A DNA stretch of 51,763 nucleotides from a virus (IMGVR_UViG_3300021182_000126:1-51763); one strand, 5' to 3'. Shown: positions 4,819-46,868, counted from the first letter of the stretch. Notes: generated by a model not told the origin, from the sequence alone. Translations and numbers: made by a program.

Positions 4819-5750
4819 TCGCAATCACCTTTCAATAGGAAACGACGGCTTGCCGCCGACTGGTATAGATACTTTTGGAAAAGCTCGGGATTCTCAGCCT
4901 GACACTTCTTCGCGTCGAATCGGCTGCCCGCCCTGGCAGTCTTCCACGTGCAAATAATTTCCTCCCCGCACGCCAGCGCCTCGACATCCTCCATCGAGCG
5001 CTTTAACTCCGCCTCCAAAGATTCTTTGTACGCCTCCAGCTTCTTGTAGTATTCCTTGATGGCCAATAGCTGGCCGGCAACCTCCAAGTCAACTTTCGTA
5101 GCCGGCCTGCTGATCGGCTTGCTGATCGGCCACCGCTTCGACACGTCGGCGGCGTTGATCGGGTCAGGCGGCGTACGGGCTTCGACCATTGCCCAAAACT
5201 CACGCTCCCGCTCAATCATTAACTGCTGAAACTCCACGTCGGCCGGAATCTCGTAGACAGCGAACTCAAAATCGCCAAACAGAACCGGGACGTCGCACAC
5301 GCCGAGTCCGCTCACCACCATGTTGTGCTGGCATTGGAACAGATACGCAAGCGGAATCTCCGCGCTCCACGGATCGCCCCAGCCGGCGCGATTTCGAGCA
5401 GTCTTCGCCTCGATGCACCTTCGGTTATCCAGTGTGATTCCATCCAAATTGGCTCGCATGAAGGGATATTCCTTGCTCACCATGGCGACGGCAGGCTTAG
5501 ACACAACCAACCCGGTTTCATCGGTGTACATCTGCAACACGACCGGCTCCAACAGGGTTCCGCGCCGCATGTCGGCCGTTTCTTCTTTCCCTGAACGTCC
5601 CATCGCGTCGAGATAGCCAACCTTCTCCATGTACACGTCTAGTGGCGTTTCCCAAGTCGACATGCCGCAGACGGCCGCGGCGTCGCTGCCACCAATCCCC
5701 GTACGGCGTTCAGCGAGCCAGTTTTCGCGGGCAGTTGGTTCCACGCTCAT
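4749..5750 (-). CDS. YqaJ-family (lambda-exonuclease-like) viral recombinase nuclease
   Basis: A 333-residue PD-(D/E)XK nuclease of the YqaJ type. Visible motifs in order: GIGGSDAAAVCG near residue 20, RRGTLLEPVVLQMY near 65 (catalytic Glu), MRANLDGI near 100 (catalytic Asp), CIEAKT near 113 (the E-x-K pair), and LFQCQHNMVVSG near 140. The C-terminal portion is a coiled-coil-like helix followed by the usual SRRFLLK ending plus an extra tail that overlaps the next gene. Family members degrade one strand of linear double-stranded DNA to give substrates for an annealing protein. The start overlaps the csrA stop (ATGA) behind a G-rich site. Confidence 0.92.
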   Translation of the reverse strand: MSVEPTARENWLAERRTGIGGSDAAAVCGMSTWETPLDVYMEKVGYLDAMGRSGKEETADMRRGTLLEPVVLQMYTDETGLVVSKPAVAMVSKEYPFMRANLDGITLDNRRCIEAKTARNRAGWGDPWSAEIPLAYLFQCQHNMVVSGLGVCDVPVLFGDFEFAVYEIPADVEFQQLMIEREREFWAMVEARTPPDPINAADVSKRWPISKPISRPATKVDLEVAGQLLAIKEYYKKLEAYKESLEAELKRSMEDVEALACGEEIICTWKTARAGSRFDAKKCQAENPELFQKYLYQSAASRRFLLKGDCECLQIMKPMLGESFLEGRKLLGS

Positions 5751-5932
5751 CTGCCGCCCCCTTTTCGTTGAATCGCCTGGAAAACCTCGTCGCGATGGAT
5801 GAACACGCTCTTCGGAGCCTCCACCCCGACACGCACGTTATCGCCGCGAATATCCACGATCGTGATGTGGATGTTCCCGTCGGGATGATCGATCGTGATG
5901 CTCTCGTTTTTGTGGCGCGATAGGACTAGCAT
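5747..5932 (-). CDS. csrA: Carbon storage regulator CsrA/RsmA
   Basis: A complete 61-residue CsrA. It starts MLVLSRHKNESITI, has the central IVDIRGDNVRVGVEAP strands and the RNA-binding IHRDEV segment, and ends in a short basic tail. CsrA dimers bind GGA motifs in mRNA leaders and alter translation and stability. This copy is the first gene of the recombination/replication block and overlaps the exonuclease start (ATGA). Its own ribosome binding site lies in a CATGGAGGTTT context, which itself looks like a CsrA target, so autoregulation is plausible. A phage-borne CsrA could tune host or phage messages. The identification is very strong; the target set is unknown. Confidence 0.97.
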   Translation of the reverse strand: MLVLSRHKNESITIDHPDGNIHITIVDIRGDNVRVGVEAPKSVFIHRDEVFQAIQRKGGGR

Positions 5933-5981
5933 AGTAAACCTCCATGCTTTGCGTTGGTACTCTTTGGGTCAGAGAGCCCCC

Positions 5982-5999
5982 GGCCGCATTGCAACGGCC
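5982..5999 (-). other. Short hairpin in the int-csrA intergenic leader
   Basis: GGCCG and CGGCC arms (5982-5986 and 5995-5999) flank an 8-base loop in the 112-bp gap between the integrase stop and csrA. It is not followed by a T run, so it is not an obvious terminator. It may be an mRNA leader element. Confidence 0.35.
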
Positions 6000-6044
6000 A
6001 CCCTTCGCTACAGCGAGCACATCGGGTACAGCTTGAGGGGCGAA

Positions 6045-6971
6045 TCAGCCGTAGACTTGAAATCTCGGCTTGTCGGAAGAATAGAGCAAAGGCGCCGGCA
6101 TGAACGGCTGGCACACGGCATTGACAATCCGCGGATCGAGATATTTCTCCGTAACGGCTCGATCGCTGTGGCCGAGCGCCTGAGTCGGGTTGCCTCCGAG
6201 CGCTTCGGTGTAACTCGCCTTGCTTCGCCGAATTCGGTGAAAACGCTGCCCGCATCCCTTCGGCGCATAGATGCCCGAGCGATTCAGAATCTGGCGAAAC
6301 CGCCGGCCGACGGTGTCGATCGTCACGGTGCGGGGAAATAGAAGCTCCCGCGACGGATCGTAAATGGACCGAACGGCCTCCAGAACATGCGGAGGCAACG
6401 GGCACCAGATGGCCTCTTTGTCCTTCTGGGTGTCGGCTTGGCAGTACAGACCGCCCGAGTCCCAAACCACGTCGACAGATCGTAGCGACAGCAGCGCCGT
6501 GTATCGCAGTCCCGTTTCCCAGCCCACCAACAGCAGCGCCGACCACCAAGCCGCGCCCGGATAGCCAGCAATCAATCCGGGCCACAGCCGAGCGGCTTCT
6601 AAGACTTTGGAAAACTCCTCTACAGTCAACGCTAACGGCGACCTCTTGGGCTCCCGCAACTTGTTCCACTTCGGCATGCGAAGCACCATCGCCAAGTCTT
6701 CGTCCATCGCTGAGCGTAGGATTACCAACAAGTGCGAACAGTACGTGTTGGCGGACGCCGGCCCCACGTCCTGCAAAAGATGCTGCTGAAATCCGGCCAG
6801 TAGCTTGGCGTCGATCCGGTCGATGGGCACTTGGCCCGCAAACAACCGCCATCGGTTTACTGCAGTCCGATAGGCCGAGATCGTCTTTCGACTGCTGCCG
6901 ATCAAATGGAGGGGAAGATAGTAATCCTCGAAGAGGGTTGGCAAAGTCGGGCACGAGGCAACGCGCAGCAT
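6045..6971 (-). CDS. int: Tyrosine recombinase / phage integrase
   Basis: The frame shows an N-terminal SAM-like core-binding domain (LFEDYYLP, then TISAYRTAVNRWRLF) and a C-terminal catalytic domain. All key residues are present, numbered from ATG 6971: Arg156 in TGLRYTALLSL, His245 and Arg248 in RFHRIRRSKAS, His268 in LGHSDRAV, and the nucleophile Tyr277 in TEKYLDP. The family catalyses site-specific integration and excision. The frame is open to ATG 7031, but ATG 6971 has an AAGGATAG site and the domain starts right after it. A repressor-controlled promoter lies upstream (7206-7234) and a tRNA-Pro half, the probable attP, lies about 1 kb away. Confidence 0.94.
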   Translation of the reverse strand: MLRVASCPTLPTLFEDYYLPLHLIGSSRKTISAYRTAVNRWRLFAGQVPIDRIDAKLLAGFQQHLLQDVGPASANTYCSHLLVILRSAMDEDLAMVLRMPKWNKLREPKRSPLALTVEEFSKVLEAARLWPGLIAGYPGAAWWSALLLVGWETGLRYTALLSLRSVDVVWDSGGLYCQADTQKDKEAIWCPLPPHVLEAVRSIYDPSRELLFPRTVTIDTVGRRFRQILNRSGIYAPKGCGQRFHRIRRSKASYTEALGGNPTQALGHSDRAVTEKYLDPRIVNAVCQPFMPAPLLYSSDKPRFQVYG

Positions 6972-7205
6972 GGTGTCTATCCTTGGTTGAGTGAGGCGGA
7001 CAAACGCCACAACCGTACGTTGCGGCTTCATCCATCACGCAATTCAAAGAGAGAGCTTCCATTCTTTGCGTCCTAGCCCGCGACCGATTCAACCGGCCGG
7101 AGTCCACTGAACAACCGTCAGGATGCACCAGCGGCCAAGGTCAGAAAGGGCAGAAGAAGCCCAAAATGAAGAAAGCCGCTACGACCACCATTGATCGTAT
7201 CGGCT

Positions 7206-7234
7206 AGTTAACCAAGTTTGGTTAAAGCTGTCAA
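7206..7234 (-). promoter_or_regulatory. Sigma70-type promoter for the integrase operon
   Basis: The minus strand reads TTGACA (7234-7229), a 17-base spacer and TTAACT (7211-7206). The -35 box overlaps the stop of the upstream repressor gene. A perfect palindrome overlaps the -10 box and most of the spacer, so the promoter should be repressible. It gives a leader of over 200 bases to the integrase start. Confidence 0.7.
7208..7225. promoter_or_regulatory. Operator O1, palindrome upstream of int
   Basis: TTAACCAAGTTTGGTTAA is an 18-base perfect palindrome around a 4-base centre. It shares the core CCAAGTWTGG with the palindrome in the promoter of the adjacent repressor gene (7497-7510), so the same protein probably binds both. 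Confidence 0.7.
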
Positions 7235-7479
7235 GAGGCGCTTCGCAGATTTTTTCCCGGCGGCGTTTCGAGCAGCTTGTCAACCGAAGTATCAAAGGCT
7301 TCGGCAAGACGGGAAACCACGCTTACAGCCGGGTCATTTTTCGCGTTAAGAACACGCGAAATCGTTACTTGAGGCACGCCGGAAATTGTAGCTAACCTCT
7401 GCTGGCTAAACCCGTTGCGTACCATCATCCGCCGCACGTTTGCCGCAAGGTTCGCAACACGATCTCTATCAGTTACCAT
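7231..7479 (-). CDS. XRE-family HTH repressor (82 aa)
   Basis: A Cro/CI-type helix-turn-helix protein. The HTH spans roughly residues 20-45, with NGFSQQRLATISGVPQVTISR as scanning and recognition helices and the usual conserved LNAKNDPAVSVVSRLAEAF helix after it. No oligomerisation or peptidase domain follows. It has its own promoter (7492-7520) whose spacer holds a palindrome matching the one in the int promoter, so it probably represses itself and the integrase/early operon. ATG 7479 has GAGGA seven bases upstream; ATG 7485 would sit right on that site. It is the best candidate for the lysogeny or excision-control repressor. Confidence 0.88.
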   Translation of the reverse strand: MVTDRDRVANLAANVRRMMVRNGFSQQRLATISGVPQVTISRVLNAKNDPAVSVVSRLAEAFDTSVDKLLETPPGKNLRSAS

Positions 7480-7491
7480 GCTCATGTCCTC

Positions 7492-7520
7492 ATTCTAGCC
7501 AAGTATGGCTTGACAGTCAA
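7492..7520 (-). promoter_or_regulatory. Sigma70-type promoter of the XRE repressor gene
   Basis: The minus strand reads TTGACT (7520-7515), a 17-base spacer and TAGAAT (7497-7492). The spacer holds the operator palindrome AGCCAAGTATGGCT. The arrangement mirrors the integrase promoter and indicates autoregulation. Confidence 0.72.
7497..7510. promoter_or_regulatory. Operator O2, palindrome in the repressor promoter
   Basis: AGCCA-AGTA-TGGCT is a perfect palindrome inside the spacer and abutting the -10 box of the repressor promoter. It shares the core CCAAGTWTGG with the int operator at 7208-7225. Confidence 0.68.
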
Positions 7521-7521
7521 C

Positions 7522-7740
7522 TCAGCTATCGCTAGCCTTGTGCCCCTCTTTGGAATCCCCTGGCCGACGCGGATCACGTTTGACAAAGAGCGAGATTCCA
7601 AACGTGACCAGCAAGACGGCGCCGAACACTAGGAGCGCCCAGGCAACATCGTGCATTGCGTAGTGCCCAAATTGCAGACTCGCCACGCAGACGAGCCACA
7701 CGCAAATGACCGCGTCGAGTCGAAAACTAGAACACTGCAT
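7522..7740 (-). CDS. Small two-helix membrane protein (72 aa)
   Basis: Two hydrophobic stretches are visible, residues ~9-25 (AVICVWLVCVASLQFG) and ~32-52 (VAWALLVFGAVLLVTFGISLF). A positively charged tail (VKRDPRRPGDSKEGHK) then predicts a cytoplasmic C-terminus. I recognise no family. It lies between the repressor and the probable attP, a position where temperate phages often carry lysogenic-conversion or superinfection-exclusion genes. That role is inference only. The start at ATG 7740 has GGGGAG upstream. Confidence 0.65.
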   Translation of the reverse strand: MQCSSFRLDAVICVWLVCVASLQFGHYAMHDVAWALLVFGAVLLVTFGISLFVKRDPRRPGDSKEGHKASDS

Positions 7741-7785
7741 AGTGGTTCAATCTCCCCGCGCAAGGCGTCGTACGTTGTTGTCATA

Positions 7786-7852
7786 GCCGTGGTGGAGTGG
7801 CCAGATTCCGAAGAATCCCAGGGCCTCGCGGCCGCCGGAACTCCACCACGGC
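7786..7852. repeat. 13-bp perfect inverted repeat enclosing a smaller hairpin
   Basis: Arms GCCGTGGTGGAGT (7786-7798) and ACTCCACCACGGC (7840-7852) are perfectly complementary. Inside them a GGCC pair (7799-7802 with 7830-7833) and a hairpin GATTC-CGAA-GAATC (7804-7817) are possible. On the plus strand the stem is followed by GGTTTTAG, a partial terminator signature. No gene is seen from 7741 to 8051, so this may be RNA structure, a terminator or a recombination site. Confidence 0.6.
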
Positions 7853-7861
7853 GGTTTTAGC

Positions 7862-7920
7862 GGGAGAGGTGCTGGTCTGCTCTCGCAGACTGCCCAAGGT
7901 CACCCACAGGGCCCTCTCCC
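7862..7920. ncRNA. Candidate structured RNA: three-way junction
   Basis: Three nested or adjacent stems fit one compact fold. P1 is GGGAGAGG with CCTCTCCC (7862-7869 / 7913-7920). P2 is GTCTGC-TCTC-GCAGAC (7875-7890). P3 is GCCC with GGGC (7892-7895 / 7909-7912). All pairs are Watson-Crick. The strand is undetermined because stems read on both. It matches no RNA family I know, and it sits 9 bases from the 13-bp inverted repeat, so the two may be parts of one RNA or leader. Confidence 0.4.
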
Positions 7921-7935
7921 AAGCTCCCAAAAGCC

Positions 7936-7958
7936 TTTCGTCACTTGTGGTTACGAAA
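7936..7958. repeat. 9-bp imperfect inverted repeat beside the att core
   Basis: TTTCGTCAC and GTTACGAAA (one mismatch) flank TTGTG. It lies 10 bases beyond the 3' end of the tRNA-Pro fragment and could be an integrase or excisionase binding site. Confidence 0.45.
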
Positions 7959-7968
7959 CGCTAATCAG

Positions 7969-8018
7969 TCGGGGCGACAAGATTCGAACTTGCGACCTTC
8001 TGAACCCCATTCAGAAGG
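7969..8018 (-). other. attP: Probable attP core: 3' half of a tRNA-Pro(GGG) gene
   Basis: The minus strand from 8018 to 7969 reads as the anticodon stem-loop (TCTGA-ATGGGGT-TCAGA, anticodon GGG), a 5-base variable loop, a T arm (GCAAG-TTCGAAT-CTTGT), the acceptor 3' strand CGCCCCG and discriminator A of tRNA-Pro. No CCA is encoded. The 5' half (acceptor 5' strand and D arm) is absent, so it cannot make a tRNA. Tyrosine integrases commonly use tRNA 3' ends, and the phage attP then carries a copy that restores the host gene. The integrase gene is about 1 kb away. The anticodon arm here extends to a 9-bp perfect stem. Confidence 0.78.
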
Positions 8019-8020
8019 GG

Positions 8021-8043
8021 ACCATACGTAAGAAGGGTATGGT
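8021..8043. repeat. 7-bp perfect inverted repeat adjoining attP
   Basis: ACCATAC (8021-8027) and GTATGGT (8037-8043) flank a 9-base loop between the att core and the stop of the second XRE gene. It could be a weak terminator for that gene or a binding site for the recombination proteins. Confidence 0.45.
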
Positions 8044-8051
8044 AGAGACGG

Positions 8052-8282
8052 CTACTTTCGACGTAGCGCGGTAGAGATGAGCATGGACGGATTTATTCCG
8101 AGTCCGTCGGCAATTATCGCCAAAGTGCTGAGATTCGGAGCACGGCGCCCACGTTCCATGTCGCAAACATAGCCGGGCGTCTTACCAATCCGCCGCGCCA
8201 ACTCCGACTGGGAAATGCCTAGCTCGATGCGCAAATGGCGCATGTTGTCGCGGAACAGCGACAGAAGTTGCTCCTCGGTCAT
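8052..8282 (-). CDS. Second XRE-family HTH regulator (76 aa)
   Basis: A short Cro/CI-like protein. The helix-turn-helix covers LGISQSELARRIGKTPGYVCDMERGRR around residues 20-47, followed by the conserved LSTLAIIADGLGINPSML helices. It differs from the first repressor in sequence and has a different operator type. The frame is open to ATG 8312, but the predicted transcription start falls at about 8312, so that start would be leaderless; I prefer ATG 8282 (MTEEQLLSLF). It probably controls itself and perhaps neighbouring transcription at attP. Which of the two regulators is the maintenance repressor cannot be told from sequence. Confidence 0.82.
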   Translation of the reverse strand: MTEEQLLSLFRDNMRHLRIELGISQSELARRIGKTPGYVCDMERGRRAPNLSTLAIIADGLGINPSMLISTALRRK

Positions 8283-8303
8283 GGCTAGGTCCAATGGGGC
8301 ATC

Positions 8304-8321
8304 TATACACATCTATGTATA
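8304..8321. promoter_or_regulatory. Operator-like inverted repeat at the second XRE gene
   Basis: TATACA (8304-8309) and TGTATA (8316-8321) flank 6 bases, covering the predicted transcription start and touching the -10 box of the XRE promoter. It is a likely autoregulatory operator and unrelated to the CCAAGTWTGG operators. Confidence 0.5.
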
Positions 8322-8347
8322 ATACCCGCAAAGGACAAGAAAAGCAA
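8319..8347 (-). promoter_or_regulatory. Promoter of the second XRE gene
   Basis: The minus strand reads TTGCTT (8347-8342), a 17-base spacer and TATTAT (8324-8319). It lies between the end of the enzyme cassette and the regulator gene, so the regulator can be expressed independently of late transcription. Confidence 0.65.
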
Positions 8348-8364
8348 CCGCTTTCCGGGCGATA

Positions 8365-9090
8365 TCAGTCCCCACGTCGTTCGATTGACACCAGGGCGTC
8401 CGTGCCTGCCTCGACATGATCGGTGACGTTACACAACGTCCGAAACTTGTAGCGAGGATCGAGTGGAAGGATCAGAGCCACCTGGCTGCCCCAGCGAACC
8501 ACGCTGAATCGCTCGGATTGGGCCAGCGGGGCGTGCTTGCGGTGATCAAACGGCATGATGGCCGACACGTCAGAATCGGCAAGTTGCACCATGTAGTACG
8601 TGTAACGCAGGTTTGTAGACCACACACGGTTGAGCATCCGGGCGTTGCTGGCCATGTACTTCATGTCGCCTTTTTGGATAACCCCCTTCTTTACTATTCC
8701 CTTCTCCACCCATAGCATGGGAAGGTTGCAGGTGCGGATCGGGCCGGTAGGCTCCCGAGTGAGAATCCCGCCAGTGGGCATCCGGTTGATATGCACGTCG
8801 TAGAACGTCATGAACACATTGATGACCAGACACGGTTGGTCGATTGTCCATGGGTGCAGCAGATCGGCCAGACTCACGTCCACGCCCTTCGCCTCCACCA
8901 CTTCGCACTCGGGGACCAAGCGGCTCTGCCCGATAATCACGCCGTCGGCCGGCGAAAAGAACCGGGTGGCGTCGATTCGCTGGGCGCGCGGCGGATCGCG
9001 GAAGAACTCGGCATGCGCCATGCGTTGTAGCGAGTAGCCCTTATACTTCTCCACGGCCGTGGCCCGCCACTCTTCCATTGAAATCGCCAT
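8365..9090 (-). CDS. Phosphatidylserine decarboxylase-like pyruvoyl enzyme
   Basis: A 241-residue protein with the family hallmarks. FFSPADGVI carries the conserved Asp49, FYDVHINRMPTGG carries His100 in the HxN-x-P motif, and VVRWGSQVAL carries the Gly201-Ser202 self-cleavage pair that becomes the pyruvoyl group. The part after Ser202 is the short alpha chain, with the usual hydrophobic LILPL strand and an EAGTDAL turn. Known enzymes decarboxylate phosphatidylserine to phosphatidylethanolamine, but paralogues act on free amino acids. No membrane anchor is evident, so the substrate is open. It is the last gene of the late operon, 4 bases after a pentein gene and with an AGAGGTGA site, next to a second pentein. 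A three-step pathway is inferred from that linkage. Confidence 0.85.
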   Translation of the reverse strand: MAISMEEWRATAVEKYKGYSLQRMAHAEFFRDPPRAQRIDATRFFSPADGVIIGQSRLVPECEVVEAKGVDVSLADLLHPWTIDQPCLVINVFMTFYDVHINRMPTGGILTREPTGPIRTCNLPMLWVEKGIVKKGVIQKGDMKYMASNARMLNRVWSTNLRYTYYMVQLADSDVSAIMPFDHRKHAPLAQSERFSVVRWGSQVALILPLDPRYKFRTLCNVTDHVEAGTDALVSIERRGD

Positions 9091-9094
9091 GCTG

Positions 9095-9958
9095 TCACCT
9101 CTGGTACTGGGCGGTTACGCAGCGAAGCAGGCCGCCTTCCATCGCCAAGTCGCGGCAGTCGATCCCCACACACGGGCAATCGCGGTACGTCTTCTCCAGG
9201 ATGTTTCGCACGGCGTTGTCGGCGTTGATGCCGAACGTCGGAAACAGCACCAAGCCGCGAACCTTGAGAAAATTGACGAAATACCCTACGGCGGGATTGA
9301 AGTCGTCGGCGTTGGGATACTTGCAGCGGAACTCGGCGTGGCTGCAAATATGCGACTGATAGGCGAAGGGAAACGGCTCAACCTCCAGGGCGTGCTTGTT
9401 GAGGGCCTTCCGAACCGCTTGGCCGTAGTCTTGCAATTCCGGCACGTGCGTCAACTGATAGTTGTTCACGAACACCGTGTTGGCGTCGATCCACGCCGCC
9501 ACGCCGTCGCTGTGGCCCAATGGATCGCCCGGCTCGACCGGCAGGAAGATAACCTGTGCCTCCAACAGAGATTCTAGCTTGTCGTGCAGGTCGTCTCGGC
9601 TATAGCCGGGGTTCTGTTCAAAAACAATATCGGTCATCAACACCTTGTCGTTGTGGCGGACGACGTTGCCGCCGTCCAACACAAGGTCCGAGTGTACGAT
9701 GGCGCCGACATGCCGCCAGGCCGACTCGTTCACGGCCAGTTGCGGCCACGCCGTTTCGTCGTGGACGTAGCGAAACTTGACGAAGTGATCGCCAACCTGG
9801 ACGGGGAAAAAATCCCGACACCAGATATTGCGGGTCTCGGTGACAATGTGAACGTCGCAGTCGACCGACTGGAGCTCCTCGACGATCGCGTTGAACACTT
9901 TGGGGTATCGGTCCAGGGACTGACACAGGTAAACGACATTGGTGTCGGCGTCGATCAT
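9095..9958 (-). CDS. Agmatine/peptidylarginine deiminase-like pentein enzyme
   Basis: A 287-residue protein of the agmatine deiminase / PAD_porph group. Visible signatures: NIWCRDFFPV (Arg48-Asp49), LVLDGGNVV (Asp95-Gly-Gly-Asn), PLGHSDG (His149 and Asp151), and the C-terminal EGGLLRCVTAQ with the probable nucleophile Cys280. Enzymes of this fold hydrolyse a guanidine group to a ureido group plus ammonia, for example agmatine to N-carbamoylputrescine, through a covalent thiouronium intermediate. It lacks a signal peptide and is a little shorter than agmatine deiminase (about 340 residues). The start ATG 9958 follows TAGGAGCC. Coupling to a decarboxylase-like and a second pentein gene suggests a shared metabolite. 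The true substrate is unknown. Confidence 0.87.
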   Translation of the reverse strand: MIDADTNVVYLCQSLDRYPKVFNAIVEELQSVDCDVHIVTETRNIWCRDFFPVQVGDHFVKFRYVHDETAWPQLAVNESAWRHVGAIVHSDLVLDGGNVVRHNDKVLMTDIVFEQNPGYSRDDLHDKLESLLEAQVIFLPVEPGDPLGHSDGVAAWIDANTVFVNNYQLTHVPELQDYGQAVRKALNKHALEVEPFPFAYQSHICSHAEFRCKYPNADDFNPAVGYFVNFLKVRGLVLFPTFGINADNAVRNILEKTYRDCPCVGIDCRDLAMEGGLLRCVTAQYQR

Positions 9959-9967
9959 GGACGGCTC

Positions 9968-10957
9968 CTAAATGAGAGGTGTGGAGTAGCTGGCCCGGTT
10001 CAGATGGCAGGCGCAGCAACTCACCGCAGCGCCGCTTTTCTCGAACTCCGACATATTCACCATGATCGGCTCCATGCCGTATTTCGGCAGCACTCGCTCC
10101 AGGAACGCCACCTTGGCGCACTCATCGTCCCAATCTTCGTGGCTGGGGGTCAGCCCGGATAGCGTCGAGCCGCAGATAACGAAGGCCCCCAGCCGAATGG
10201 AATTGGTGATCGCCGCGTGCGCCAGCTTCACGGACACCGGAATGATTTCGCAGACCTTTTCGATTGCCTTCTTTTCTTCCGGTTCCAGGAGCGCCGTGCA
10301 GGCCATGGCCGATTCGGCCGTCAGCGGGAAGAAGTTGCAATCGAAGTGGTAGAGCTTTTGGTCTGTCATCTTTACCCGAATGACCTTCATGTCGAACTCT
10401 TGCTCGAACCAGTCGTAGACCTTCGGGTCGGTTCGGATGCCGTAGCCTCCCACGTAGATATTGTCGCGCACGTGCTTGGTGTCCGCCTCGCCCTCCCACG
10501 TGATGTCCGCCGGCGGTCGCCGCACGTCATAGCCCATCATCTTGAACAGCTTTTCGCCGATCTTGTCTTCTCCCTTCCGCGGCGGACTCTTGAAGTTAGC
10601 CACCACGGCGACCGGCTTCGGCTTGTGACAAAGCACCATGCCGATATTGGCGACGTAGACGAGGTCTTGAAAATCGCGCTCGCTGGGCAGCACGTAGACC
10701 AGTGCCTCCCCGGCAATTTGCTGGTACAGGTCCATCCACTGCCGGTAGGCTAGTTGGTAGTCGACCTTCAATTCCTCGGGCGACATCCCGGTCATCCACA
10801 CGTTGTTGGGGCTGTCGGTATCAAGCGTGAAGGGGAAGTTCATCAAGAATGCCGGGATATCCAACTGGCTCGGATTGTCGAGTTGGACGTCGGGGTCCGG
10901 CTTTCGCGACGGCGTGGACGTTCCCTGCTTCGGTTTCACTAACGGTTTTCCGCTCAT
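9968..10957 (-). CDS. Amidinotransferase/dimethylarginine-dimethylaminohydrolase-like pentein
   Basis: A 329-residue member of the guanidine-modifying superfamily, distinct from its neighbour. After a ~30-residue polar Lys/Pro-rich N-terminus come FLMNFPF and NNVWMTGM, then DLVYVANIGM, WEGEAD (Glu155-Asp159), YGIRTDP, YHFDCNFFPL (His204-x-Asp206) and SGAAVSCCACHLNR with the candidate nucleophile Cys314. These match the Asp/Glu-His-Cys catalytic set of DDAH, arginine deiminase and glycine amidinotransferase. Hydrolase and transferase members cannot be separated by eye. The gene starts three bases after the stop of the giant virion protein gene, behind AGAGGAAG, so it is part of the late operon. 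Confidence 0.85.
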   Translation of the reverse strand: MSGKPLVKPKQGTSTPSRKPDPDVQLDNPSQLDIPAFLMNFPFTLDTDSPNNVWMTGMSPEELKVDYQLAYRQWMDLYQQIAGEALVYVLPSERDFQDLVYVANIGMVLCHKPKPVAVVANFKSPPRKGEDKIGEKLFKMMGYDVRRPPADITWEGEADTKHVRDNIYVGGYGIRTDPKVYDWFEQEFDMKVIRVKMTDQKLYHFDCNFFPLTAESAMACTALLEPEEKKAIEKVCEIIPVSVKLAHAAITNSIRLGAFVICGSTLSGLTPSHEDWDDECAKVAFLERVLPKYGMEPIMVNMSEFEKSGAAVSCCACHLNRASYSTPLI

Positions 10958-10959: not shown

Positions 10960-13900
10960 CTATCGCTTCCTCTTTATAAGCCTTTTTTCCGGCACGTTCT
11001 CGCGTAGAACGGGAATGCCGGTTTCCAGGTGTTGCCAGAACGTCTCGGGCTTGCGTTTGATCGTTTTGCCGGACTCATCCTCGTCGTCCATGTTGGCAAT
11101 CTGCTGCAACATGCCGGGCAGGACTCGCGACTTGGCCAACTCCGCCAAAAAGTCGTCGGGGTTTTGTTGTAGCTTGTTCAACTCGAACATTTCTCGCACA
11201 AACGGGACATCTTCGGTCAGGCCCAAAATTGCGGCAGTAATGCCCCGGCCGGTGCCTTTCTTCTCTGGATTCTTCTTGGATAATGCCGAGGTGGCCACCT
11301 GCCCGATGGTTGAAAAGAACTCGTAGACCTCCGTGGGGATCGTATGGGTTTTGTAGTGCGTTCCGCCAATGTCGACTTCGCCCGGCTGCAAATCTTCGTC
11401 CTTGTACTTCTTTCCGTGCTGGTAGAATGCGCCAATCCCAGCGCCGCCAGTAAGGACCGCCACGAGAGCGATCGCGCCGCCAATGTTGCCGTTCTTGAGT
11501 TTCCGCATAATCATATCGGCTTCGGCGGGCTCCAGATCAGCAATGCCGGCTCGAATCGCCCGCCGTGCTCGTACGTTCCCCTCAACCAACCCCGTGACGT
11601 GCTCGAAACATTCGGCCACGATATTGGTAGGTACTGTGACGATCGGAACGAGGGTATTGGCGATCAACTCAGCGAACTTTCCCAATAGGGTGGCGTGCCC
11701 AGTCTTTGGGTTGCGTCGGGCGGAAAAATACTCGCGAAATCGCTTGGCCGCCGCGTTGTCGTTCATGAAAATCTGTCGCTCGGCGTGCTGGTAGCACTCG
11801 CTGTCAATCTTCATCGTCACCATCGGATCGGTAATGTCGATGTTGTGCTCGGCCGCCCATCGCATGTACTTTGACTTGGCATAGTCGAAAGCCATCTGCT
11901 TGATCGGCTCCTTGAATGCGGCGTGAACCTTGCCGGGATAGTCCAGCCAAGACCTCGGCTCGACTCGCCCCTTGCCGACTCGCGTGGTAAGAGGACTCTC
12001 CTCACCCTTCAAGAGTTTGATCGAGCCCTTCAACCCCGTAACCAGTCCAATGTATCCATCAAGCACAGCCCGAAAATCCATTCCACCGTGGATCGGCGAC
12101 TTCTCCGCAATCTCGGGGTGGCGCCATGACGATAAACCACCCGACAACTCGCGCACAGGCAGTTCCAAAATGCGCGACGCCGCCATTGACGTAAGCTTTC
12201 CAAAGATGGACGGGTAGGACAAGACGTTGAATCGCACCACCTTGCCGGCAAGATCGGCTGCCTTCTCTACTCCGGTTCGGTTGGCGCTTCGCGCCGTAGC
12301 CTCCATGATCCGCAACTTGAGCTTCTGTTGCTCAATCTGATACTTCAAGCCGTCCTGTTCTTTCGTGAGGACTCGTTTCTTGATGGGCTTCTTGGCGTAG
12401 TTGCCACGGGCGACCCGACTCTTGTAATCGGCCAGCCGCGTTTCGAGCGAACGCTTGTAGGCAAGATTGCTCTTTTCCTCGGGCGAAAGTTTCGGGTTGG
12501 CGGCGTCGCGCAAAGCGTCCCGCTTCTCTCGCAACTTGGCCAGTTGTGCACGCTTGGCGTCCAGGGCCGGCGTGGAGATGGGTTTGTCTTTAGGTTTCGG
12601 CGCCACGTCGCCACTTTTCAGATCGGCCTCTAACTGGGCAATGGAGCGATCCAGAGCCTTGCCGGCAAGCTCGGCCTTTTTGGCGTCCGAGATCGGGGGT
12701 TTCGGGAAGGCGGCGTCGTGCTTTTCGGACAGGGCCGCGTCGGCTTCACGCAGAGCAAGTAGTTCGGCGTCCGGCTTCAACTCCGTCCGTTCCTTGATAA
12801 TCTTCTTGCCGGTGCGCAACTCCTCCGCCTTGTCGGCCATGCGATTACGCACCGCCCGTTTGGCAGAATCCAGGGCAGTCTTGAGTTGCTTCGCAGGATC
12901 GGTAACGCTGAACCCGCCCTTTTTCTTCGCTTCATTGACCAGCTTAATCAGGCGTCGCTCTTTCTTGCTTGGCTCGCGGCGCTCAATGCCCGTCTTCTTT
13001 GGAGCCGCGCCCTTTCGCATATCATCCAATTTAGCAAGCTGCTGTAACTCTCCTTTGATTACGCGGACTTTAATACTCGTCTCGTCCTTCGTGAGCTCCT
13101 TAAACTCACCATAGCCAGACATCGCATCCATTGTCTGCCGACGTGTGATTTCCGGCATGATCCACTTAAGTTCGGCGTGAACCGCGTCGACAACCTTCTT
13201 TCGATCCTCGATTCCAGACTCCACAGTCCATCGCGTGAGCTTCTTCGCCAGCCGCCCAATTTCCGACATATCCGTGGCGTCATGCACAGCCGGCGGCAGA
13301 GAACCCTCATCCCGCAGGGTATCCCATGCCGCCAAGAATGTTTCGCGGGCTTTCTCGGCCTTCTCGCCGAGGCGATCGCGCATCGTCGCCATGAATTCCG
13401 AGACGCGCATCGTCGCCATGAATTCCGAGAAATGCACGATCCCCAATTCCACGGCCGCCCTCGTTAGTTTCGTAGCCTCTACGATTAACTCGGGATCGAG
13501 GGGGTTGGCGTACAGCTTGCCGGCTGCCGCTTTCACAAAGCTGGCAAAGGCATCGTCAAAAGCTTTCCGCGCCGCGGCAACCCGAACCTTACGAGGCACC
13601 ACAGGCTTCCGCGAGGCTTTCTCTGTGGGCTTGCTCTCGGCAGGGGCCGTACTCGAAGGCTCAAATCCATCCGCCACTTCCCCCTCGCCTTCCCAAGGAA
13701 AATGAAAATCGTCGGGAAGCGGCTTTCCCTTCTCTGCTGCCAACCGCTGGGCAACTTCGTCGAGCTTATCGTACCATTCAGGAACCGCCCGCGGACCACG
13801 CTTAATTAGGTCCACGATGGCCGCTGCCATGTCCTTCGTTTCAATAACGCCCTCAGCGTCACTTTCCGGTTGAAGCCCCAGTTCAGGAAAGTCCCTTGCC

Positions 13901-16713
13901 AACTGTGCCGCTTTCCCGTCCAAGTGGTGATATTCCTCGATATCCACTATCTTCCCGTTTTTCCACAACCGGCCGTTTTCTATGTCGCGTATGACGGCCG
14001 GTGACAACCCAGTGGCCTTCACGACTTGGCGGTAGGCGCTGTTGTATTCTCGATTCAGTTCAGCCTCAACTTTGGCCCGTTCCTTCGCTTCGCTCTCCAG
14101 CGCGTCGGGATCAATCCCGTATTCATGGGCGGTCGCGAACTGCCGACGTATCCGCCCCTCGATCGTCTCGCGCCGCTTTGCCGCCACTTCTTGTTTTGCC
14201 AGTTCAATCTGGCGATCGAGCTCGTCTTGACGGGATTTCTCCTCATGTTTCGCATTCGCCTCTTGGGCGGCCTGTAATTCCGCAGTCAGGCGGGCAATCT
14301 CGGCCGTCGACTCTACGACGGTTGCATGCTCCTCGGGGGTAAGCGGTTCTCCGCCCTTGGCAATGCTCAATTCCGTCAGGCGTCGGCTGAGAGAATAGTC
14401 CCCAGACTTCTCATCTTGTTGCGAGACACCGGATTGGCCCCACAACTGCCCTTTGACGCGAGCTGCCTTGTCGGCTGCATGGACGTCATCCAGAGCGGCA
14501 TCGGCCTCCCTCTGGGCTTTCGCAATTGCCTTGTCATCGCCGCTCTTCGCGGCTTCCACCAGGGCGGCCGAAGTCTCGCTTAGCCGCGACTCCATTTGGG
14601 CGGCGTGCCTCTTGAGAATCTGAACCTCGACCTTGCTAATGTCGCGTGGAGTTTCGAGCAATTCCTTGACCAACCGCGGCCCCACGGTCGGGTCAGACTC
14701 CATTTTTCGCTTCGCCTCAGCGTGCCACTCTTCCACCGTCTCGGGCGACTTCGCGGCTACGGGCTCTTCGCCACGTTCCGCACGTCGAGCCGTAACGCCG
14801 GCTACCGTAGTACTGACCCTTCCGGCGTCTGCCGCAGGCGCCGCCGGAACCTCGGCCGGTGGTGGTGTAGGTGGTGGTGTAGTTTCGTCCGGTGCTACCC
14901 CGGCTGTCGGCGTGCGATCCTCTGGCTTGCCGACAACTGCTTCTTCTTCTGAACGGGCTTCGGTCGCTTGCCTTTGAGGATTCCCGTCCCCGCGTCCGCT
15001 TGGTTGAACTCCTTGGCTACCTTTTGGGGGATTCCCACCTTCTTGGCGAAGGATTGGTTGTGGGCCGCTGCCGCCATCGTTCGGGCTTGTTTTTTGGACT
15101 TGCTGGGCATTGGATTGCTCCTTGATCTTGGTTGGAATGTAACCGGCATCTTTGATAGCTTGTAACGCTTCTTCTTCGCTGTTCGCGGGTATCGTGTCCG
15201 CATATTCATTGCCCTGTTCGTCCATCGCCTCGAACTTAAAGGTTTTGGTTGGAGGGGAAGGAGGCTGACTGCCCGGCATCGGCGGGGGCTGACCGGGCGG
15301 AGATGACTGCTGAACCTTTCTTGCAGCCTCCACAAGGGCCTGCCGTTCACTGGCCGACGTGCCCTTCGCTCCGGTTGCCTTCTCGAATTGAAGACGCGAG
15401 GGCTTTGAAGGGAGGCCAGCAACGTCGCGCACGTGCCCGACGGAATGTAATAGCGCGGCCTGCATTACCGTGTCGGGAAGTTCAGCAACGGTTTCTCTCC
15501 ACAATTCGCCAGCCGACTTGCCCTTCTTCCCGCTGATCCGAACAGCACCTTCCTCGGCCAGTCGAGACTTGAGCCCTGACGCCGTAAGGATTCCACCTGT
15601 CTTGAGTATATCGAGAGCGTATCGCTGGGCCGATTCCCTAATCGTCTGGGAAACCACCGCCTCGCCGCCAAACTGTCCGATAATTTTGGCAGGTAACGCG
15701 GAGAAAAGCGCTGTCTCTAAAGCGCCAGCAGCCACGCCGGCGCCCATAGCTGCCACGCCGGTTGCGCCCCTCGCCTTTGCAGCTTGTTCCACGTTGACAG
15801 CCGCGGGAAGACCAAACATCGCCGCGACACCAGGAGTCCCGCCAGCCAATGCTGCGGCACCCATTTTTGGCAATGCCGCCAAGGCGGCTTGTGCGTTACG
15901 GCTAACAAAGCCCTGATCGGGATGCGTGAATCTAGCCGGATCGGTAGCAACGTCCAGAAGATGCTGCTCCCATTCCCAATCGTCCTTACTCTGAAATGGG
16001 TTAAGTCGTTTGATCGACTGACCGGCTTGAGCGAGCTGTCCGATCCCAGAGCCGACCGTTCGCATGGCCCAATTGTCGTCGTTTTTCTTGTCGCGTTCCT
16101 GATTCACATACTGGGAAGCTGCCAGAACGTCATTGCGAAGTTCCTTTGGAACAGCGGATGGGTCGGATAAGTCACTGTGAGCCAAGTCGAAGGCATCGAG
16201 AGTAGATTTGACGGCCTTAACAAACTCCGGGTTGCTCTCACCGCCCAGCCGCTTGGCGATGGCCTGCGCGAAAGCCTCATATTCCTCGGGCTTTCGCGTC
16301 CCGTACTTATGTGAGTAGACTTGATCCTTTTCCGGCGCTGCGAGTCGGTTTGCTTCTTCATTTGACGCCTTTATGAAATGTTCTTGCAAACCCTCGGGCG
16401 TCATGCTCATTCTCGCATGGACCGGCGGTAACGCGGCCATTTCCTCGTCGGTCATCGGGATTGATCGGTTGGGCGTGAAGCTTTCGCCCGCCGAGTGTTG
16501 CGTCGGTGCGGCCGGAACGTCAGGGATTGCCTGCGCCGCCGGCTCGGGGACCGCTAATGGTTTCGGCTGTTCAACCACCGCATCCGCGGGCGGGGGCGAG
16601 TGGTCTTGCGGCATCACGATCCCACTACCATCGGGCGGCGGTGGAATCGTGGCCTGCGGCATAACGATGCCAGAACCATCGGGCGGCGGTGGGATGGTCA
16701 TTGTGTCCGACAT
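10960..16713 (-). CDS. Giant polyvalent / internal virion (ejection) protein, 1917 aa
   Basis: The largest gene of the window. The N-terminus has two tandem copies of TIPPPPDGSGIVMPQ and a Pro/Ala-rich stretch. Residues ~270-350 are Ala/Gly-rich and hydrophobic (GAAALAGGTPGVAAMFG and similar), perhaps membrane-inserting. Around residue 490 lies a small domain beginning FKFEAMDEQGNEYADTI, then long low-complexity and coiled-coil Glu/Lys/Ala-rich segments to ~1450. A helical C-terminal region contains further Gly/Ala-rich hydrophobic runs (GGAIALVAVLTGGAGIGAFY) and ends in basic residues. This build resembles phage polyvalent proteins injected with DNA and T7 gp16-like ejection proteins. ATG 16713 overlaps the upstream stop (TAATG) and follows GGGAGGATC. 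No protease, transglycosylase or polymerase motif is obvious. Confidence 0.75.
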   Translation of the reverse strand: MSDTMTIPPPPDGSGIVMPQATIPPPPDGSGIVMPQDHSPPPADAVVEQPKPLAVPEPAAQAIPDVPAAPTQHSAGESFTPNRSIPMTDEEMAALPPVHARMSMTPEGLQEHFIKASNEEANRLAAPEKDQVYSHKYGTRKPEEYEAFAQAIAKRLGGESNPEFVKAVKSTLDAFDLAHSDLSDPSAVPKELRNDVLAASQYVNQERDKKNDDNWAMRTVGSGIGQLAQAGQSIKRLNPFQSKDDWEWEQHLLDVATDPARFTHPDQGFVSRNAQAALAALPKMGAAALAGGTPGVAAMFGLPAAVNVEQAAKARGATGVAAMGAGVAAGALETALFSALPAKIIGQFGGEAVVSQTIRESAQRYALDILKTGGILTASGLKSRLAEEGAVRISGKKGKSAGELWRETVAELPDTVMQAALLHSVGHVRDVAGLPSKPSRLQFEKATGAKGTSASERQALVEAARKVQQSSPPGQPPPMPGSQPPSPPTKTFKFEAMDEQGNEYADTIPANSEEEALQAIKDAGYIPTKIKEQSNAQQVQKTSPNDGGSGPQPILRQEGGNPPKGSQGVQPSGRGDGNPQRQATEARSEEEAVVGKPEDRTPTAGVAPDETTPPPTPPPAEVPAAPAADAGRVSTTVAGVTARRAERGEEPVAAKSPETVEEWHAEAKRKMESDPTVGPRLVKELLETPRDISKVEVQILKRHAAQMESRLSETSAALVEAAKSGDDKAIAKAQREADAALDDVHAADKAARVKGQLWGQSGVSQQDEKSGDYSLSRRLTELSIAKGGEPLTPEEHATVVESTAEIARLTAELQAAQEANAKHEEKSRQDELDRQIELAKQEVAAKRRETIEGRIRRQFATAHEYGIDPDALESEAKERAKVEAELNREYNSAYRQVVKATGLSPAVIRDIENGRLWKNGKIVDIEEYHHLDGKAAQLARDFPELGLQPESDAEGVIETKDMAAAIVDLIKRGPRAVPEWYDKLDEVAQRLAAEKGKPLPDDFHFPWEGEGEVADGFEPSSTAPAESKPTEKASRKPVVPRKVRVAAARKAFDDAFASFVKAAAGKLYANPLDPELIVEATKLTRAAVELGIVHFSEFMATMRVSEFMATMRDRLGEKAEKARETFLAAWDTLRDEGSLPPAVHDATDMSEIGRLAKKLTRWTVESGIEDRKKVVDAVHAELKWIMPEITRRQTMDAMSGYGEFKELTKDETSIKVRVIKGELQQLAKLDDMRKGAAPKKTGIERREPSKKERRLIKLVNEAKKKGGFSVTDPAKQLKTALDSAKRAVRNRMADKAEELRTGKKIIKERTELKPDAELLALREADAALSEKHDAAFPKPPISDAKKAELAGKALDRSIAQLEADLKSGDVAPKPKDKPISTPALDAKRAQLAKLREKRDALRDAANPKLSPEEKSNLAYKRSLETRLADYKSRVARGNYAKKPIKKRVLTKEQDGLKYQIEQQKLKLRIMEATARSANRTGVEKAADLAGKVVRFNVLSYPSIFGKLTSMAASRILELPVRELSGGLSSWRHPEIAEKSPIHGGMDFRAVLDGYIGLVTGLKGSIKLLKGEESPLTTRVGKGRVEPRSWLDYPGKVHAAFKEPIKQMAFDYAKSKYMRWAAEHNIDITDPMVTMKIDSECYQHAERQIFMNDNAAAKRFREYFSARRNPKTGHATLLGKFAELIANTLVPIVTVPTNIVAECFEHVTGLVEGNVRARRAIRAGIADLEPAEADMIMRKLKNGNIGGAIALVAVLTGGAGIGAFYQHGKKYKDEDLQPGEVDIGGTHYKTHTIPTEVYEFFSTIGQVATSALSKKNPEKKGTGRGITAAILGLTEDVPFVREMFELNKLQQNPDDFLAELAKSRVLPGMLQQIANMDDEDESGKTIKRKPETFWQHLETGIPVLRENVPEKRLIKRKR
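13377..13430. repeat. 27-bp perfect tandem duplication inside the giant virion gene
   Basis: Two exact 27-base copies (13377-13403 and 13404-13430) duplicate the nine-residue segment SEFMATMRV in frame within the giant protein. The perfect identity suggests a recent slippage or duplication event. Confidence 0.9.
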
Positions 16714-18122
16714 TACGATCCTCCCACGGGAACCCACTGCGCACCGTCCCACTCAAACTTTCCGCTTCCGCTGCGGGGCCGTTTCTGCGGGGGTCCCTGT
16801 GGCTGCGATTGGTCGGGGGCCTTTTCGGGCTTCCCCTGATCCTGTTCCTGCGGCGGCTTTCTCGGAACGTAGTCGGGATACATCTTTAGTGCCTTCTCCT
16901 CGGCCGCGGCGCGTTTCTTTTTCCACTCGTCGTGTGCGGGATTCGGATCGCCTCCCCCAAACCCAAGCGTGGATGACGTTTTCTCTGGCGGCTCCGCGTT
17001 GGTTTGTTCCTCTTCCCATTTAATCAAAAACTTTTGTCGGCTGTCGTTTTGCTTGCGGTTGTACTCGGTGCCTTTGTCGTGCTCACGCTCCTCGAACTGC
17101 CGCCTCTTTTCCTCTGCGGCCTGCTGGCGCTCCTCTGGCGATGTGCCGTTGGGATGCTCCTTTTTGTATTGCTCCGTGTAGTGCTCCTTCATCGCCTGGA
17201 GCGTCGGCCTGTCTATCTCGTAGTGTTTTTCTTTCCCGTTCCACCTTAACGCCGAGAGATAGCCGTTTTCTTTTGCCCACTCCCGCAACGAGGGCGAGAG
17301 GTACGACGGATTCTTTTGCAGGAACCGGTAAAACTCCTCGTCGGCCTTCTTCTGGCCATCCCCAGCCGGCGGTTGTTGCGGAACCGACGCCGAAGGTTGA
17401 GACGCCTGATCGGGCACCTTTTCCGGCGGCACATCGAACAGGGCGCTGTCTCCCATCTGATCGGGAAGCGAAGGATCGGGAAAGTCTTGTTCGCCGGAAT
17501 CAAGAACCCCGTTCGGCATTCCCCGCATAAATTGCAAATCGCCATCCTGTGTCGACGCAACAAACGGTCCCAGTCTTTCGCGCAGGTCGGGCGGCATTCT
17601 TGCCACCATTTTCTGAACCCTCGTCTCTGGCGATCGGGCAATCTCCTCGGGTGGCACAGGCATGGCGGCCCGGCGAATCTCCGCGTCGTTGGCAAAACTC
17701 TGGGCTTCCAAATCCTTCTTCTGCTCGTCGGTCAGGTACGGGCTGCTGCGCCACTTGGACCGCGCGTTGGCGTTATTGGCCAACCGCTGCTCATCTTCCG
17801 GGCTGGGGATCATTAGTTGGCCGGTTGCCAGACCCTGGTGGATGGCTTGGTCTTGCTCTTCTTGGGCCTGCTGCTGAATCAGTCCAGCCTGGTGAATGTG
17901 CTGCGGGTCGTTGAACTCGCCAGCCGAATGCCTCCGTAGGATTTCTCCCTGTGCCTGACGGCCCTGGTGGGCAATCTGGAGCAACGCGGCTTGGTGTTTC
18001 AGACCGTCTATGTCGTCAGGCTCGGGCGACGACAGAGCCGCCAGGTGTTGCTCGGCCTGACGACCGTAGGCGTGGTGGTCAAACAGCGCGGAGTTATCGA
18101 GGCCGGTGTAGGATTCATCCAT
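16713..18122 (-). CDS. Probable internal virion protein, Gln/Glu/Pro-rich (469 aa)
   Basis: The sequence is long, hydrophilic and rich in Gln, Glu, Lys and Pro, with extended helical segments (HQAALLQIAHQGRQAQGEILRR, the AEEKRRQFEEREHDKG stretch) and a disordered Pro-rich C-terminus ending FEWDGAQWVPVGGS. That ending is a small hydrophobic peptide often seen as a docking tail. No enzyme motif is visible. It sits between a 281-residue Gln-rich protein and the 1917-residue protein, like the T7 gp14-gp15-gp16 order, so an ejection-complex role is inferred. ATG 18122 overlaps the upstream stop by 8 bases; the frame extension to 18200 lies within the neighbour. Confidence 0.65.
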   Translation of the reverse strand: MDESYTGLDNSALFDHHAYGRQAEQHLAALSSPEPDDIDGLKHQAALLQIAHQGRQAQGEILRRHSAGEFNDPQHIHQAGLIQQQAQEEQDQAIHQGLATGQLMIPSPEDEQRLANNANARSKWRSSPYLTDEQKKDLEAQSFANDAEIRRAAMPVPPEEIARSPETRVQKMVARMPPDLRERLGPFVASTQDGDLQFMRGMPNGVLDSGEQDFPDPSLPDQMGDSALFDVPPEKVPDQASQPSASVPQQPPAGDGQKKADEEFYRFLQKNPSYLSPSLREWAKENGYLSALRWNGKEKHYEIDRPTLQAMKEHYTEQYKKEHPNGTSPEERQQAAEEKRRQFEEREHDKGTEYNRKQNDSRQKFLIKWEEEQTNAEPPEKTSSTLGFGGGDPNPAHDEWKKKRAAAEEKALKMYPDYVPRKPPQEQDQGKPEKAPDQSQPQGPPQKRPRSGSGKFEWDGAQWVPVGGS

Positions 18123-39848: not shown

Positions 39849-40182
39849 CGCCGTAACCTCCGTCGTCGTCGTGTACATTGGCCATTCCCACCAGCGAACC
39901 AAAAGCCTTCATCAACTCGCGGCGACCCGCCCTCGATTCGATGACGCAGTTATCCCGCTTGGTGGGATCGTAATGAACGCCTTGAATGCCTCTTTTTCGT
40001 AGCTCCTCATTCATCCGGGCGCAGTCGTCGGGATGAACGGACATCGCGATTGACTTACCGGGTTTCGACTGGCCGTAGGCCGAGCCAACCATCGGGCCGC
40101 GGTCGACAACAGGCGACGTATCGCGCTCGGTCACTTCGCGGACCTCACCGTCGATGACGCGAAATCGTCTGGTTACGCTCAT
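39841..40182 (-). CDS. Small structural-region hypothetical protein (113 aa)
   Basis: A 113-residue protein starting MSVTRRFRVIDGEVREVTE. It contains AMSVHPDDCARMNEELRKRGIQGVHYDPTKRDNCVIESRAGRR, a pattern I have seen in phage genes between portal and scaffold. It ends in an Asp/Gly-rich tail. It may help portal or scaffold assembly. ATG 40182 overlaps the portal stop (ATGA). Function unknown. Confidence 0.72.
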   Translation of the reverse strand: MSVTRRFRVIDGEVREVTERDTSPVVDRGPMVGSAYGQSKPGKSIAMSVHPDDCARMNEELRKRGIQGVHYDPTKRDNCVIESRAGRRELMKAFGSLVGMANVHDDDGGYGDG

Positions 40183-41954: not shown

Positions 41955-41984
41955 AGAAAAACTCCACCGGCAGAACCAAGAAAC

Positions 41985-42021
41985 GAAAAAACCCAAGCAC
42001 GTAAGCACCCGTGCTTGGGTT
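41985..42021 (-). terminator. Strong intrinsic terminator between terminase/tRNA and portal
   Basis: On the minus strand a perfect 12-bp stem (AACCCAAGCACG / CGTGCTTGGGTT, 42021-42010 and 42001-41990) with an 8-base loop is followed by T residues (41990-41985). It lies only ~30 bases before the portal start, so it must be bypassed or regulated. Confidence 0.85.
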
Positions 42022-42103
42022 CTCGTAAACTTGGTCACTTCACGTCAGGCCGGCCGGCCCAGCGTGAAGGTTGCCGGTTTAGATTTAGAAAGAACAAAAC
42101 AAG

Positions 42104-42175
42104 TGGTGGCCGCAGGAATCGGACCTGCCTTTTCTTGGTTGTAAGCCAAGCGAGACGCCTTGCCTCCCGGCCACA
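42104..42175 (-). tRNA. trnV: Phage tRNA-Val(TAC)
   Basis: On the minus strand the sequence folds as a 72-base cloverleaf. The acceptor arm is TGTGGCC / GGCCACC (outermost pair mismatched). The D arm has a short GAG/CTC stem. The anticodon stem CTTGG/CCAAG holds loop CTTACAA, giving anticodon UAC. A 5-base variable loop, T arm GCAGG-TCCGATT-CCTGC and discriminator A follow. CCA is not encoded. It is a degenerate but plausible tRNA reading GUA. It lies between the terminase and portal genes and just upstream of a strong terminator. The anticodon should be confirmed with a tRNA finder. Confidence 0.82.
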
Positions 42176-45785: not shown

Positions 45786-45814
45786 TTGACCATAACTGAC
45801 GATACCGCTATGAT
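45786..45814 (+). promoter_or_regulatory. Strong sigma70 promoter for the rightward module
   Basis: TTGACC (45786-45791), a 17-base spacer and TATGAT (45809-45814) make a near-consensus promoter. It lies about 67 bases before the start of the first rightward gene and within a frame extension of that gene, which supports the downstream start. Confidence 0.78.
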
Positions 45815-46862: not shown

Positions 46863-46868
46863 ACCTGA

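Follow-up and report, generated by a model that had tools for sequence, protein, structure and literature searches.

In the viral contig IMGVR_UViG_3300021182_000126, which we analysed over its whole length of 51,763 nucleotides (nt; from here: the window), three tightly packed open reading frames occupy positions 8365 to 10957 on the minus strand. Their coordinates are exactly those at which an initial annotation, made from the sequence alone, had placed a three-gene enzyme cassette. In the order of transcription, the genes are:

P0003, 9968–10957, minus strand, 329 amino acids (aa): ArgZ/AgrE-like arginine dihydrolase with a pentein fold, predicted to convert arginine into ornithine, two NH3 and CO2
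P0002, 9095–9958, minus strand, 287 aa: pentein enzyme of the agmatine deiminase/PAD_porph family, with agmatine as the likeliest substrate
P0001, 8365–9090, minus strand, 241 aa: soluble pyruvoyl decarboxylase with the fold of phosphatidylserine decarboxylase (PSD), predicted to be an ornithine decarboxylase yielding putrescine

Judged from these predicted activities, the cassette probably encodes a phage pathway from arginine to putrescine that is read late. Its outer two genes belong to a pair that is conserved among many phages.

The assignment of P0003 as an arginine dihydrolase of the ArgZ/AgrE type is well supported by sequence, predicted structure and active-site residues, from which the activity is predicted. 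In Pfam, P0003 matched the family PF19420 (DDAH_eukar) weakly, with 28 bits at a cut-off of 23. The top sequence matches in the PDB were the AgrE/ArgZ entries 6lrf and 6jv0, with E-values of 1e-18 for the single sequence and 2e-25 for a profile of 21 sequences, whereas the corresponding values for DDAH were 0.5 and 3e-4. The AlphaFold2 model of P0003, with a predicted local distance difference test (pLDDT) score of 90.9, was superimposed on the product-bound structure of ArgZ (6jv0) with a Z score of 36.3 and 1.8 Å over 266 residues, which made ArgZ the nearest pentein neighbour among those compared. Other penteins scored lower: DDAH and AstB both reached Z 28.1, amidinotransferases 23–25 and agmatine deiminases about 21. 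The amidinotransferases AGAT, StrB1, SxtG and HsvA have the superfold in common with P0003 at a Z about 11 below that of ArgZ. On these structural scores, we rejected DDAH or amidinotransferase as the best label for P0003, although the protein may have a DDAH-like or amidino-transferring activity. The likeness to these enzymes that the initial annotation had seen gives way to a closer relationship with ArgZ/AgrE in sequence as well as in structure.

In the alignment, residues N22, N71, R90, E118, R139, H168 and D170 of AgrE correspond to N52, N104, R127, E155, R175, H204 and D206 of P0003, and Cys264 of ArgZ corresponds to C314. Of these residues, R127, E155, H204 and D206 do not vary among 36 homologues from phages and bacteria, and N52, N104, R175 and C314 show at least 90% conservation. 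Asn71 in the guanidine pocket of ArgZ, the equivalent of N104, is what we take to be the determinant of the dihydrolase reaction. The two arginines that align with those of DDAH, R127 and R175, presumably bind the α-carboxylate of the substrate, as in known structures of the family. Because both are conserved, a free α-amino acid, arginine, is expected as the substrate. Against the NCBIfam model for arginine dihydrolase, NF052232, P0003 scored 93.8 bits, below the equivalog cut-off of 450 bits, and it is therefore named ArgZ-like here and not assigned to NF052232. The DDAH models of NCBIfam, with 94.6 (Mycobacterium tuberculosis type), 37.7 and 21.8 bits, did not reach their cut-offs of 300–450 bits.

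Relatives of the cassette genes were sought in IMG/VR by two independent scans. The dihydrolase profile identified 48 loci, six of them on contigs that end too early. In 36 of the 42 assessable loci a P0001-like gene starts at most 60 nt away; the remaining six are Fletcherviruses, in which both genes are present but apart. The PSD-like profile yielded 195 relatives, the best 80 of which were followed up. A dihydrolase gene lies directly upstream in 77 of these, a peptidylarginine deiminase (PAD) gene intervenes in one, and two loci start too late, i.e., the dihydrolase is adjacent in all 78 assessable loci among the best 80, once via the PAD gene. When both scans were combined, the two genes were found within 60 nt of each other in 100 of 117 distinct contigs, usually with a spacing of 2 nt. 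Pairwise protein distances of the dihydrolases and the PSD-like proteins were correlated in 96 phages with r = 0.94 (none of 2000 permutations as high) and in 12 bacteria with r = 0.58 (one of 2000 permutations as high). The dihydrolase and PSD-like genes are a conserved, co-inherited pair. With relatives of P0001 and P0003 in over 100 further phages, the assignments in the cassette are far beyond chance. By its own account, the initial annotation would have been refuted had the genes not been found together elsewhere; the adjacent pair in these contigs and the complete trio in two others described below speak in its favour.

Most phages possess only the pair, without P0002. The two genes are adjacent in the isolated Bacteroides phages DAC16, DAC19, DAC20, DAC22, DAC23 and SJC03. 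In T4-like phages, where capsid, head protease and PhoH were identified as neighbours, the pair is located just 3′ of the major capsid gene in 73 of 74 assessable contigs and ahead of phoH in 90 of 90. The current annotation of the two genes reads 'phosphatidylserine decarboxylase' and 'amidinotransferase', i.e., unrelated enzymes. A tie to the modified guanines in the DNA of Campylobacter Fletcherviruses was considered and rejected, as no link of the pair to DNA-modification genes was seen in the window and the T4-like loci examined.

In bacteria, the dihydrolase profile matched 29 loci, one of which is situated on a phage-like contig, leaving 28 bacterial loci. A PSD-like gene is adjacent to the dihydrolase gene in 16 of them, in actinobacteria, acidobacteria and others. 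Its place is taken in four cyanobacteria (L060, L061, L064 and L067) by a pyridoxal phosphate (PLP)-dependent ornithine/diaminopimelate/arginine decarboxylase with 130–141 bits. In Spirulina (L076), an ornithine/lysine/arginine decarboxylase (OKR_DC_1, 262 bits) lies beside the dihydrolase, and in Mesorhizobium (L080) a SpeD-like gene (45 bits) was found 3.5 kb from it. A gene resembling SpeD, the S-adenosylmethionine (AdoMet) decarboxylase, also overlaps the start of the dihydrolase gene in the phage contigs L009 (5540–5989; PF02675 with 67 bits) and L010 (2931–3380), with no PSD-like gene nearby. For phage SpeD homologues, ornithine or arginine decarboxylase activity has been measured (PMC10407285). 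That four unrelated decarboxylase families adjoin one arginine dihydrolase is our strongest argument that P0001 acts on the dihydrolase product ornithine. From the gene pairing together with the replacement by other decarboxylase families, ornithine decarboxylase is the most likely function predicted for P0001. To our knowledge, such a function is not known for the PSD family. In six bacterial genomes, the profile of the P0001 family matched only the copies adjoining a dihydrolase, seven in total. In a phylum-wide survey of the group to which L062 belongs, it matched in only 2 of 396 genomes, so that the bacterial form of the family is rare and scattered.

The sole Pfam match of P0001 is PF02666 (PS_Dcarbxylase), with 65 bits at a cut-off of 22; the SpeD-type domain PF02675 (AdoMet_dc) gave no match in this protein. 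The catalytic residues named by the initial annotation, D49, H100 and the pair G201–S202, are present and do not vary among 25 homologues from phages and bacteria. The family membership with its intact Gly-Ser site, as well as the annotation of the Campylobacter phage protein as phosphatidylserine decarboxylase, would agree with a role in lipid metabolism, in which P0001 alters the host membrane while P0002 and P0003 each act independently on arginine or proteins. We regard this explanation as highly improbable, given that the 10 matching NCBIfam models for phosphatidylserine and archaetidylserine decarboxylases yielded 30–58 bits, none reaching its cut-off (183–377 bits), that no membrane or hydrophobic segment was found in P0001 (top 19-residue hydropathy 1.0), and that the protein is strictly coupled to an arginine enzyme and replaced elsewhere by soluble amino-acid decarboxylases of the ornithine/arginine type. 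An amphipathic anchor may still be present in P0001. Phosphatidylserine chemistry was rejected as its main role on these grounds, and the lipid or envelope function listed by the initial annotation finds no support. The structural model of P0001 (pLDDT 82.7) aligned in VIA-align with E. coli PSD at Z 10.3, with PsiD at Z 8.9 and with the arginine decarboxylase of Aspergillus oryzae at Z 8.0.

The second enzyme had been likened to agmatine and peptidylarginine deiminases, in agreement with the match of P0002 to PF04371 (PAD_porph; 87.1 bits, cut-off 25) and with its PDB matches, the agmatine deiminases 2ewo and 2jer and the P. gingivalis homologue 1zbr. Residues W46, R48–D49, D95-G-G-N98, H149, D151 and C280 are conserved. 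On sequence grounds, agmatine is the likeliest substrate. P0002 has the Pfam family and the PDB hits in common with the agmatine deiminases AguA/AIH and differs from them in its shorter N-terminus and in scores hundreds of bits under the NCBIfam cut-offs for this enzyme (44 and 35 bits versus 483 and 382).

The initial annotation was aware of no described phage system with this trio. The trio is not unique to this phage, as the complete set was found in two further phage contigs; the pair is widespread among phages and occurs sporadically in bacteria. Gene order in L008 is as in the window (66/56/66% identity), while L167 has the order dihydrolase, PSD-like, PAD (51/49/42% identity). Terminase similarity among the trio phages amounts to 45–64%, which puts them in one broad lineage, and the trio is therefore stable but lineage-bound. 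Homologues of the PAD gene also occur near the dihydrolase and PLP-dependent decarboxylase genes in the cyanobacterial loci L060, L061 and L064, and Bacteroides phage DAC19 has a distant PAD homologue elsewhere in its genome. The sequence MT836602.1 (L006), deposited as 'Bacteriophage sp.', contains a PAD domain homologous to P0002 that is fused into a 514-aa protein. Read by eye, this sequence is a Bacteroidetes mobile element with reverse transcriptase and conjugation-like genes, and it was rejected as a phage carrying a P0002 homologue. In the record of L008 (G403:C1:22440-25961), the match to the large terminase subunit (TerL) is in three pieces within one frame of 1210 aa, suggesting two in-frame, intein-like insertions.

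Several observations weigh against a route from arginine via ornithine to putrescine. The model of P0001 scores Z 11.7 with the unrelated barrel of EIIA-Glc, above its score with PSD, so that the match in fold does not settle the matter by itself; a Foldseek search with the model gave no match below an E-value of 0.001. For P0003, NCBIfam does not discriminate between arginine dihydrolase and the M. tuberculosis-type dimethylargininase: the respective scores of 93.8 and 94.6 bits are practically equal and lie far under the cut-offs. Six of the 28 bacterial loci lack any decarboxylase beside the dihydrolase. P0001 could act on arginine and not on ornithine, as the PSD-fold enzyme from Aspergillus does according to its PDB title. 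In addition, P0002 has no step in the two-enzyme scheme, and a search of the window and of five records of related phages detected no N-carbamoylputrescine amidohydrolase of the nitrilase family (PF00795).

The last three points would be accommodated by a linear route through agmatine, in which P0001 converts arginine to agmatine, P0002 yields N-carbamoylputrescine and P0003 frees putrescine by attacking the ureido or guanidino end, so that every gene has a step. Consistent with it are also the membership of P0002 in the agmatine deiminase family and the clustering of decarboxylase, PAD homologue and dihydrolase genes in the three cyanobacteria mentioned above. This route nevertheless appears unlikely to us, since P0003 retains the two arginines that align with the α-carboxylate binders of DDAH, which is unexpected for an enzyme acting on agmatine or N-carbamoylputrescine, and since the majority of phages carry the pair without P0002.

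A further point is that exporters recur near the bacterial dihydrolase and decarboxylase genes, of the multidrug and toxic compound extrusion (MATE) type in L068, L071 and L067 and of the ATP-binding cassette (ABC) type in L064, L065 and L086, which suggests that the product can be exported in bacteria. They would fit a cassette for a specialised metabolite. Its product would be some amine or guanidino compound distinct from putrescine, which bacteria export and phages employ in signalling, host manipulation or DNA modification. Natural-product producers are indeed among the hosts (Streptoalloteichus, L083 and L084), and an early annotator likened the PSD-like protein of a Campylobacter phage to AF210249, which we take to be the bleomycin cluster. 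Such a product is improbable, as no ligase, transferase or DNA-modification gene lies beside the pair in the phage loci examined, and the four interchangeable decarboxylase families have in common only substrates of the ornithine, lysine, arginine or AdoMet type.

In the pathway from arginine to putrescine, which we prefer, P0003 would remove both guanidino nitrogens of arginine, so that ornithine, CO2 and two NH3 are formed. P0001 would cleave itself at Gly201-Ser202, thereby forming the pyruvoyl cofactor, and would then decarboxylate ornithine to putrescine, as suggested by the gene pairing and the decarboxylase replacement. P0002 is confined to this phage lineage; it probably supplies the polyamine pool or forms a side branch of it, and might do so by converting agmatine to N-carbamoylputrescine. 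Polyamine production had been one of several roles listed for the cassette at the outset; the identity of the dihydrolase and its pairing with a decarboxylase now favour it. Polyamines neutralise part of the charge of packaged phage DNA. Late transcription behind the virion genes would have putrescine on hand as a DNA counter-ion when the genome is packaged. Because the pair follows the major capsid gene and precedes phoH in T4-like phages, a late supply of polyamines, perhaps for DNA packaging, is likewise conceivable there. Other possible uses are the release of nitrogen or relief from polyamine limits set by the host.

The proposed position of the cassette in a late operon fits the arrangement of the window, since a match to TerL (42182–44119) and a weak match to an SU10-like portal protein (40179–42038) are located on the same strand (minus). 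The cassette itself is flanked by:

1930-aa gene, 10960–16752, minus strand: presumed late or virion gene, co-directional with and upstream of the cassette
Weak terminator-like stem-loop, 8339–8356, minus strand: directly 3′ of P0001, the count of such sites being at chance level

The spacers measure, in the order of transcription, 2 nt between the 1930-aa gene and P0003, 9 nt between P0003 and P0002 and 4 nt between P0002 and P0001. A purine-rich sequence resembling a ribosome-binding site precedes the ATG of all three cassette genes, and no promoter-like site was found between the 1930-aa gene and P0003. The 1930-aa protein matched no Pfam or PHROG family; it has a homologue at the equivalent position in the trio phage L167 (33% over 1455 aa) and weak similarity to the trio phage L008. 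A tyrosine integrase is encoded at 6045–7031 (minus). The initial annotation had placed the cassette next to attP, yet no att core was identified, and a simple motif search found no tRNA T-arm motifs at 5701–8400.

Four other features of the window were recorded. A gene of the serine recombinase/invertase type (PHROG 95/125) is located at the opposite end, at 50754–51452 (plus), additional to the tyrosine integrase. A tRNA-Val (tac) gene at 42103–42175 (minus) lies between the terminase and portal-like genes. At 5747–5932 (minus), a small protein that was judged by eye to be CsrA-like adjoins a YqaJ recombinase gene. The region 45786–48068 (plus), divergent from the late genes, contains a DUF6744 gene and, after it, a gene for a MoxR-type AAA ATPase that belongs to the MoxR-vWA-beta-propeller kind.

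On a wider scale, we propose more tentatively that a widespread, so far unrecognised putrescine pathway, consisting of a stand-alone arginine dihydrolase and a PSD-fold ornithine decarboxylase, is part of the head-gene cluster in many large tailed phages and of the late operon in the temperate-looking lineage studied here. These phages might then make their own DNA counter-ions at the time of packaging, with the PSD fold recruited as an ornithine decarboxylase. Such a two-gene route, which in dozens of phages from the environment lies right beside the capsid gene, was seemingly overlooked owing to the two names under which its genes are annotated. The old question of phage control over the polyamine content of virions becomes directly testable, because both genes are present in phages already in culture, namely Campylobacter Fletcherviruses and the DAC group of Bacteroides phages. 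If true, the pathway would extend the PSD fold to a new activity and, in addition, provide scattered bacteria with a full route from arginine to putrescine.

No account of the two genes as a pathway was found in the open-access literature, subscription journals being largely outside the search. A survey of the ocean treats viral psd purely as lipid metabolism (PMC11360552). Phage polyamine pathways have already been described (Li et al. 2023, PMC9992855), as have ornithine and arginine decarboxylases derived from SpeD (PMC10407285), and the texts of both papers mention neither phosphatidylserine nor dihydrolase.

Among the known systems, the ArgZ/AgrE domain of the cyanobacterial ornithine-ammonia cycle (6jv0, 6jv1, 6lrf) resembles P0003 in its fold, in the equivalents of Asn22, Asn71, Glu118, His168 and Cys264 and in the predicted reaction from arginine to ornithine. 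Unlike ArgZ/AgrE, P0003 stands alone, without the C-terminal ornithine cyclodeaminase half, is only about 25% identical and is partnered with a decarboxylase, whereas the partner in ArgZ/AgrE is the cyclodeaminase. PsiD, which acts on tryptophan, and the arginine decarboxylase of Aspergillus oryzae (PDB 8zia, 9jf5) are examples of a PSD-type pyruvoyl fold that acts on a free amino acid, as proposed for P0001; these enzymes are fungal, larger than P0001 and without a sequence match to the P0001 family profile, at structural Z scores of 8–9. The known phage polyamine pathways (PMC9992855, PMC10407285) are like the proposed cassette in that phage enzymes, including self-cleaving pyruvoyl decarboxylases, make putrescine or other polyamines. 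The cassette differs from them in that its decarboxylase belongs to PF02666 and not to SpeD (PF02675), and in that the ornithine would be produced within the cassette by the dihydrolase.

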